Shown: piece after piece, positions 1 to 48,110 of the stretch
How positions within the stretch are numbered: the stretch's first letter is position 1
Layout: every line of letters begins with the position of its first letter
Assembly: GCA_026708965.1 (NCBI GenBank)
Contig: JAPOTY010000013.1
Location: 1 to 64,000, forward strand
Direction of reading: 5' to 3'
DNA: 64,000 nt
Source: Gammaproteobacteria bacterium
GTDB taxonomy: Bacteria; Pseudomonadota; Gammaproteobacteria; Steroidobacterales; Foliamicaceae
Position numbers and translations under genes: made by a program
The notes under the pieces: generated by a model
Told to the model about the DNA's origin: nothing
Database searches by the model: none
Seen by the model: only the letters and a program-made list of their open reading frames with translations

Positions 1-32
1 CGCCGCCAAGCCCCATGGATGGGTTCATGCGT

Positions 33-62
33 CTCCCGCGAGAGGGGAACGCGCATAGAGGC
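33..62. repeat. Palindrome-family element, copy A (one arm plus loop side; the other arm lies before the window)
   Basis: ctcccgcgagaggggaacgcgcatagaggc is identical to 19863-19892. The adjacent gccccatggatgggttcatgcgt (1-32) is the reverse complement of the loop of copy C at 25783-25807, with about one mismatch. Confidence 0.8.
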
Positions 63-194
63 GGACTCGAAGCGACCCCGCGAGAGGCAAGCGCGCAAAG
101 GGGGGGAATCGAGTGGGCGAGCAACTCTCGGGATTGCGTTTTTGGGTGTCGTCGGCTTGGAAGATAAGGCCAAGGGCACTTGCCTTTTTTATGC

Positions 195-19752: not shown

Positions 19753-19791
19753 CGCCCTCGGCTCCCTTCCCGCTAAACGCGCTTCGGGTTC

Positions 19792-19892
19792 GCCTCTATG
19801 CGCGTTCCCCTCTCGCGGGAGGCGCCATCCCTGGCTTGGTTCCGCCATCCATGGCTCCAACACTCCCGCGAGAGGGGAACGCGCATAGAGGC
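19792..19892. repeat. Palindrome-family element, copy B: perfect 30-bp inverted repeat, 41-nt loop
   Basis: 19792-19821 gcctctatgcgcgttcccctctcgcgggag is the exact reverse complement of 19863-19892. Confidence 0.95.
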
Positions 19893-19990
19893 TCCGGCTG
19901 GCGCAGACCCTAAAAGGGCCGGCACCCCGCGGATCGAAGTATCTGCTGGAAGCAAGAGGGGGGCAGCGGGTGGATCGAAGAGTGCGGCGC

Positions 19991-25715: not shown

Positions 25716-25754
25716 ATTCCACCAACGGGGCGCGGAGGATTTTGCCTAGTCCTC

Positions 25755-25858
25755 GCCTCTCCGCGCCTCCTTCTTCCGGGAGACGCATGAACCCGTCCAT
25801 GGGGCTTGCTCCGGCATCCTGCCTCCGATACTCCCGGAAGAAGGAGGCGCGGAGAGGC
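25755..25858. repeat. Palindrome-family element, copy C: perfect 28-bp inverted repeat, 48-nt loop
   Basis: 25755-25782 gcctctccgcgcctccttcttccgggag is the exact reverse complement of 25831-25858. Confidence 0.95.
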
Positions 25859-25870
25859 TTCAGTTGCGGG

Positions 25871-46591: not shown

Positions 46592-47902
46592 ATGCAAAAA
46601 ACCTCAGTCGTTCGGATTCGCGAGGACTTTGAAGTCGCCGATATTTCGCTGGCCGATTTCGGCGAGCGCGAAATCGCTATAGCGCGCAGCGAAATGCCGG
46701 GGCTGATGGCCTTGCGGAAGGAATACGGCGGCAGCCAGCCGCTGGCCGGCGCCCGGATTACCGGCTGCCTGCACATGACCGTGCAAACGGCCGTGTTGAT
46801 CGAAACGCTGCTGGAGCTGGGCGCGGAGGTGCGCTGGTCGTCGTGCAACCGTCTTTCCACCCAGGATCACGCCGCCGCGGCCATGGCGCGCCGGGGCGTG
46901 CCGGTGTTTGCCTGGAAGGGCGAGACCGAAGAGGAGTATGTGCGCTGCATCGACCGCACCGTAGCCGGCCCCGGCGGCTGGACGCCGAACCTGCTGCTGG
47001 ATGACGGCGGCGACCTCACCCGAATCGTCCACGACGAGCATCCGCAGCTGGCCGACAGCCTGCTGGGCTTGAGCGAGGAAACCACCACCGGCGTCCACCA
47101 GCTCTACCAGATGCAGAATGCGGGCACGCTGCGTTGTGCGGCCATGGATGTGAACGCCTCGGTGACCAAGTCGAAGTTCGACAACCTCTACGGCTGCCGC
47201 GAATCGCTGGTGGACGGCATCAAGCGCGCCACCGACGTGATGGTGGCGGGCAAGATCGCCGTGGTTTGCGGCTACGGCGATGTGGGCAAGGGCTGCGCGC
47301 AGTCGCTCAAGGGCTTGGGCGCGCGCGTCTGGATCACCGAAATCGACCCTATTTGCGCTTTGCAAGCGGCCATGGAGGGCTATCCGGTGGTGACCATGGA
47401 CGAAGCCTGTTCGCAAGCGGATATCTTCGTGACCGCCACCGGCAACCATAGCGTAGTGACTTACGACCACATGGCGCAGATGAAGGATCAGGCCATTCTT
47501 TGCAATATCGGCCACTTCGATGTGGAGATCGACGTGGCTTCGCTGGCGGATTGCCGCTTCGAGGAAATCAAGCCGCAGGTCGATCACGTGATCTTTCCGG
47601 ACGGCAAGCGCCTGATCCTGCTGGCCCGCGGACGGCTGGTGAACCTGAGTTGCGCCACCGGGCATCCCAGCTTCGTGATGTCCACCAGCTTCACCAACCA
47701 GGTGCTGGCGCAGATCGAGCTGCTCGCCGGCAAGGATTACGGGAACCGCGTCTATACGCTGCCGCGGCGGCTCGACGAGAAAGTGGCCCGCCTGCACCTG
47801 CCCAAGCTGGGCGCGTCGCTCACCCGCCTCACCCCGGAACAAGCCCGCTACCTCGATATTCCGGAAACCGGCCCGTTCAAGCCCGACCGCTACCGCTATT
47901 AG
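46592..47902 (+). CDS. ahcY: Adenosylhomocysteinase
   Basis: [52 protein letters not shown]-terminal KPDRYRY. Confidence 0.97.
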
Positions 47903-47948
47903 GGCCTGTTGCCGCTATCCGCCGCCGCGATGTCGTCGCCTGCGCAAG

Positions 47949-48070
47949 CCCTTTCGCGCCTCTTTCTTGCGGGAGTATCGGAGGCAGGATGAGCGTCGAT
48001 GTCCTGGCGCGAACGAGCAAGCCCCATAGACGGGTTGATGCGTCTCCCGCAAGAAGGGGGCGCGAAAGGG
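47949..48070. repeat. Palindrome-family element, copy D: 27-bp arms (25/27), 68-nt loop
   Basis: 47949-47975 ccctttcgcgcctctttcttgcgggag versus 48044-48070 ctcccgcaagaagggggcgcgaaaggg; the two mismatches are G:T (G:U in RNA). Confidence 0.93.
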
Positions 48071-48110
48071 CGGAATCGAAGCGGTTTAAGGTGATGAGGA
48101 AGAGCGGCAG

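Follow-up and report, generated by a model that had tools for sequence, protein, structure and literature searches.

The window analysed here (64 kb) is contig C33 of the 47-contig, 2.47-Mb genome G000, whose relatedness to SB0673_bin_2, COS2_bin_9 and similar MAGs hints at a sponge-associated gammaproteobacterium. An exhaustive inverted-repeat scan of the window returned exactly three strong palindromes: site B, flanked by genes for a TonB receptor and lpxC; site C, between an lptB-like ABC ATPase gene and an lptA-like gene; and site D, between sahH and glmM (families from Pfam, gene names inferred). The original prediction had listed four palindromic intergenic sites, A to D. B, C and D are real, and the remaining one, site A, is a half copy; its palindrome is not checkable because base 1 is the contig start and only the right half of the copy is present. 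The features of the four sites are as follows.

1..62, plus strand: site A, half copy at the contig start with hairpin 2 and the 3' arm (33-62); pattern match C33:33-53
19792..19892, minus strand: site B, complete element of the short-loop subtype; arms 19792-19821/19863-19892, 30/30 paired
19822..19862, minus strand: core of site B; hairpin loops ATGGAT and AGGGAT, from the sequence
25831..25858, minus strand: 5' arm of site C in element orientation, perfect complement of 25755-25782 (28/28)
25783..25830, minus strand: core of site C; GGA loops on the minus strand at 25817-25819 (hairpin 1) and 25796-25798 (hairpin 2)
25755..25782, minus strand: 3' arm of site C in element orientation, 28/28 inverted repeat
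47948..48071, plus strand: site D, complete element; arms 47948-47975/48044-48071, 26 Watson-Crick and 2 G.T pairs of 28
47976..48043, plus strand: core of site D, from the sequence and the inverted-repeat scan

The self-complementarity predicted for the stems was confirmed at B, C and D, and the loop blocks recur as had been described, B having a shorter loop of the same kind. Compared with shuffled sequences, the stems of B, C and D gave z-values of -11.2, -8.2 and -6.8 when folded as RNA and of -11.4, -8.9 and -7.9 when folded as DNA. A promoter or terminator was looked for at site D and neither was found; the site has no T-run.

Read in one orientation, the element (~105-160 bp) consists of AGCC, ~22 variable and pyrimidine-rich nucleotides, CGGGAG, hairpin 1, hairpin 2, GCGTCTCCCG, the complementary arm and GGCG. 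CTCCCG pairs with CGGGAG to close the two-hairpin core, and the hairpin loops are (A)NGGA, which become visible in the shared orientation, i.e., minus at B and C and plus at A and D. The inner hairpins are variable: there are short CA[NGGA]TG hairpins, some copies have a long hairpin with a TGGC loop, and in some TACA/TGTA replaces CCCA/TGGG, with both sides changed. The dominant loops are ATGGAT, AGGGAT and CAGGAT. These GGA loops are near-invariant, at least two GGA being present in 104 of 110 copies from the genome itself; several copies have lost one, among them site D, where hairpin 1 is enlarged and the loop of hairpin 2 reads ATAGAC.

Pattern searches for CGGGAG...CTCCCG recovered dozens of further copies in the genome, 54 of them with arms that were aligned. 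A covariance model (R1), built with the structure in mind and giving rough E-values, produced 132 matches in the window genome, corresponding to 125 distinct placements (site B, 19785-19899, 106 bits; site C, 25746-25867, 122 bits; site D, 47939-48080, 94.8 bits). Adding site A resulted in 126 placements at 102 sites in 2.47 Mb instead of the four originally listed, and the genome-wide model search that had been proposed did uncover a dispersed, REP/BIME-like family. The copies lie between genes, with the exception of three placements in weak or doubtful ORFs (the genomes are MAG assemblies, with genes called by a simple in-house codon-based caller). The first bases of contigs C6, C27, C33, C44 and C47 are inside an element copy; the family therefore breaks the assembly, and the copy number is a lower bound.

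The sites comprise 52 codirectional, 32 convergent and 10 divergent contexts, at a median distance of 39 bp from gene 3' ends. Orientation relative to the genes is random, since 32 copies in codirectional contexts are sense and 29 antisense. More than one copy occurs at 23 sites with frequent head-to-head pairing, and the 16 sites with just two opposed copies all share one arrangement, a minus copy followed by a plus copy. The spacer of the head-to-head pairs has a small palindrome of its own (CCCTAAAAGGG-type) that differs between pairs (e.g., C6:9250-9276 and C43:70444-70470). Just 3' of the truncated copy A, window positions 76-106 hold an extra 3'-arm-like fragment (CCCGCGAGAGGCAAGCGCGC) that recurs beside dimers at C6:9089 and C43:141654, so composite arrays exist. 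The atp operon hosts two copies around atpG, which was identified by Pfam; the other two genes beside them are, by their sequence, atpA and atpD.

Arm pairing was counted in the 54 aligned copies over 28 stem positions, and among the resulting 1512 cells 1487 were Watson-Crick, 12 G.T and 13 mismatches. Double changes were present in 27 of 37 pairs (by RNAalifold and by pair count). Paired cells amounted to 96.3%, as opposed to 72.8% in shuffles and 43-51% when the partner was slid, and the covariation score was 0.621, as opposed to 0.174 in shuffles and 0.13-0.14 when slid. The compensatory change claimed in the original prediction is thus real, and it is also found in place at orthologous sites (see below). 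In 110 intact copies of the window genome the variable arms have a mean identity of 49%, which equals the column-wise random expectation, and the stems are 97.8% Watson-Crick. Ten pairs of copies with identical 60-nt cores have arms that are less than 60% identical; one of them is site C and C18:21893, in which the 60-nt core, including the closing CGGGAG/CTCCCG, is exactly the same and the arms are 59% identical.

To follow single steps of change, minimum-spanning links between identical-core copies with at most eight arm differences were used. Along these links the arms had changed on both sides with pairing kept 27 times (11 times by transversion) and on one side only 7 times, counts that are inflated and non-independent because the copies are related. 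The sole difference between C27:32301 and C46:26325 over core and arms is one T-A to A-T flip. The preponderance of doubles, together with many transversion flips that lack a G.U intermediate, suggests that one arm serves as the template for rewriting the other. On the oriented strand, the distinct non-Watson-Crick events were 80 G.T, 23 A.C and 83 others, and the strand favored by the G.T excess is the one that bears the GGA loops. Symmetric DNA processes predict that G.T equals A.C, whereas an excess is predicted if such pairs are tolerated in a folded single strand, be it RNA or DNA, or if one exposed strand is deaminated. The excess is an argument that the folded strand with the GGA loops matters in its own right, and as symmetric copying would not be expected to produce it unaided, there is probably also some selection on the fold. 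The step from covariation to structural selection is less direct than originally drawn: the G.T signal favors it, but the double changes and flips suggest arm copying.

All eight same-genus genomes are loaded with elements, and heavy loading within the order is confined to the window's genus; 50 other genomes of the order yielded four weak matches only. Stretches of G003-G007 were compared by flanking sequence with the window genome or with each other. Many copies, including B and C, face an empty orthologous site in a relative, and in these comparisons the inverted arms were present and no clear target-site duplication was seen. Some of the empty sites could be deletions, given that there is additional DNA in the inserts. 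Where orthologous sites are occupied, 168 pairs were compared in six co-oriented pairs of copies, and 7 of the changes were double and 4 single. G005:235767 and G006:100544, for example, are told apart by a single G-C to C-G flip (flanks 91-94% identical); the 49-nt cores of G005:24743 and G006:282321 are exact reverse complements, with similar arms and flanks that are 92-94% identical; and between G003:48604 and G005:63868 the core is inverted too, with two double transversions in the arms. Some same-site differences resemble replacement of the whole element, which ectopic conversion could also give. For template switching at inverted repeats, the published signature is arm homogenisation plus spacer inversion (PMC8604942). 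Arm homogenisation together with core inversion in our family matches it; chiefly for this reason we doubt that covariation on its own is proof of RNA selection here.

Site D also lies at a synteny change (window 47900-48110). The window genome has sahH-glmM, the relatives sampled for glmM have another gene (ubiD-like by its C-terminus) immediately upstream of it, and in G004 ~1.5 kb separates the sahH-like and glmM flanks; site D hence falls at a local rearrangement. A second palindrome family, with the core GGCAGGAGCGTCGCGAAGTGGC and stems such as TGTTGCACC...GGTGCAACA, was noted at the same intergenic sites in relatives (L225:616-848; the 1640k stretch of G004).

The best copies of the window genome scored 28-31 bits (site B, 29.5 bits) with the Rfam model TwoAYGGAY (RF01731), below its gathering score of 43. 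Their alignment is full length (model positions 1-168), with the outer stem and the two hairpins in model order and AYGGAY-type sequence in both terminal loops. One intermediate link, L366 from another genome, satisfies both RF01731 (44.6 bits) and R1 (64 bits). TwoAYGGAY and the window family have in common a long outer stem of free sequence, two adjacent AYGGAY-type hairpins, AAG between them and GCGUC ahead of the 3' arm. What is specific to the window subfamily is its inner stem (CGGGAG/CTCCCG) and its ends (AGCC/GGCG), and it also stands apart by its more than 100 copies in the window genome. On the basis of the full-length, sub-threshold match and of L366 we regard the window family as a subfamily of TwoAYGGAY type, distant and amplified, formal membership not being claimed. 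When RF01731 was searched in 369 Gammaproteobacteria it was present in 25, and ten of these genomes, re-searched, had 6-41 matches each, often as inverted neighbours ~80-120 bp apart; TwoAYGGAY is thus multi-copy and often paired in inverted fashion, like the window family. The entry in which the 2010 paper lists TwoAYGGAY gives it as a probable RNA that is not cis-regulatory (PMC2864571). We read the whole TwoAYGGAY kind as dispersed palindromes, a feature for which the copy number may already be noted in that paper, and a motif catalogued as RNA is thereby recast as a dispersed, probably mobile palindrome. Matches to Rfam miRNA precursors (mir-4716, mir-3099 and others) were far below gathering scores and were rejected, as any long hairpin gives such matches.

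Other origins and roles have to be weighed against mobility. Independent decay of one recent inverted duplication, with pairing not maintained, would agree with the degraded arms of a few copies. The arms of different copies, however, differ at about half of their positions and are still 98% paired, and the covariation disappeared in every slid or shuffled control; these controls and the double-change counts refute decay, which the original prediction had named as the outcome that would undo it, and we give it practically no weight. Classical REP or REPIN sequences, mobilised by a RAYT (Y1 HUH) transposase, are likewise high-copy intergenic palindromes with inverted dimers and a bias to positions downstream of genes, and the convergent and codirectional bias and the ~100 copies found here are as in REPs (PMC3733652). 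Yet PF01797 (Y1_Tnp/RAYT) was absent from the window genome and the seven same-genus genomes tested (0/8), which speaks against a resident mobiliser of this type in them and leaves the earlier suggestion of a RAYT/IS200-type transposase unsupported. No GTAG consensus was present in the flanks of the stem feet, and hypervariable 30-bp arms around a branched core with two inner hairpins differ from repeats of 20-40 bp, so that we consider a classical REP/REPIN identity very improbable. CGTC-tagged REPs, for which a dedicated transposase is not known, resemble our elements in the GCGTC block before the 3' arm (PMC3733652), but their stems measure 8-9 bp and their tag is terminal, whereas the block here lies inside a 105-160-bp element. 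Among translated ORFs between copies at most 3.5 kb apart, Pfam identified atpG only, and inspection of the rest by eye revealed no transposase; a search for plasmid or phage carriage with one genus copy as query gave no match. A function as bidirectional terminators or as stabilisers of mRNA 3' ends under host selection appears improbable as well: the proximity to gene 3' ends, the 32:10 ratio of convergent to divergent sites and the very stable folds are in its favor, but D lacks a T-run, copies sit inside the atp operon, the sites are not conserved among relatives and the GGA loops are left unexplained.

The loops are accommodated if the elements are functional RNAs with two CsrA/RsmA-type sites (ANGGAN loops) per transcript, to which one CsrA dimer could bind, and which would serve as distributed decoys or 3'-UTR regulators; the stem covariation would then be ordinary RNA selection. 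The dominant loops fit CAGGA(U/A/C)G, RUACARGGAUGU and ANGGAN (PMC7652899), and judged by these motifs CsrA binding is plausible. TwoAYGGAY and CsrB belong to the same clan (CL00106), G.T exceeds A.C on the GGA strand, and there are the two copies around atpG. CsrB/RsmZ-type CsrA-binding RNAs also have GGA in hairpin loops; CsrB is one discrete gene with many sites, whereas the window family has two sites per copy and is dispersed without an evident promoter. A csrA gene was found in 20 of 20 element-bearing genomes tested, but csrA is near-universal in Gammaproteobacteria, so that its presence is weak evidence for a CsrA reading. The random orientation and the copies that have lost a GGA loop, D among them, speak against a strong host-selected cis role, site D yielded neither promoter nor terminator, and transversion flips without intermediates are hard to obtain by mutation plus selection. 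A functional-RNA role is, in our estimate, a possibility worth keeping in sight, although a rather doubtful one.

Mobile REP/BIME-like behaviour is the best supported account. In all, we think it fairly likely that the four sites are members of a family found throughout the genus: mobile, non-autonomous palindromes of ~105-160 bp that are REP/BIME-like, form a distant TwoAYGGAY subfamily and act via one folded strand. On that strand two short hairpins, with (A)NGGA loops, sit on top of a long stem. The element may spread in this single-stranded, folded form, its core and loops serving for recognition, with a mobilising enzyme that is presumably of the host or non-resident. Once a copy is inserted, quasipalindrome correction by template switching from arm to arm would convert a mutation in one arm into the matched change in the other and may sometimes flip the core; in this way the arms could drift freely yet stay complementary while the core stays conserved. 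More speculatively, and on present evidence an unlikely extension, a widespread class of mobile palindromes (TwoAYGGAY and relatives) might carry paired CsrA-binding hairpins, the hundreds of GGA loops per genome forming a distributed, self-spreading CsrA decoy, or CsrA being a host factor, with the arms rewritten by templated copying. Should CsrA bind the GGA loops, sites would be fed into a global regulatory network by a mobile repeat. Irrespective of CsrA, the family is a warning that not only RNA selection but also copying between arms can give textbook covariation; copying betrays itself by transversion flips, a scarcity of G.U and almost perfect pairing. These families are abundant enough for direct tests of both arm copying and CsrA binding.

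A core 20-mer had, among the matches listed, hits in Saccharospirillum, Stutzerimonas kirkiae, Granulosicoccaceae, many Desulfuromonadales MAGs, SAR324 and others, single matches such as one in a Chloroflexi contig being possible MAG contamination. Exactly two GGA lie between the arms in 31 of 32 copies from distant taxa. In Desulfuromonadales the same core is found inside an inverted repeat with the ends GTAACTATTCAGC...GCTGAATAGTTAC; when pairs of GTAACTATTCAGC ends that might enclose a transposase gene were looked for in these loci, convincing pairs came only from short elements (~45-145 bp). This arrangement resembles MITEs with TIRs, from which the window family differs in that the window genome lacks GTAACTATTCAGC/GCTGAATAGTTAC termini and no target duplications were seen. 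The Desulfuromonadales loci L160, L187 and L215 hold elements of ~45-70 bp that have the same GTAACTATTCAGC ends without the core, like internally deleted MITEs.
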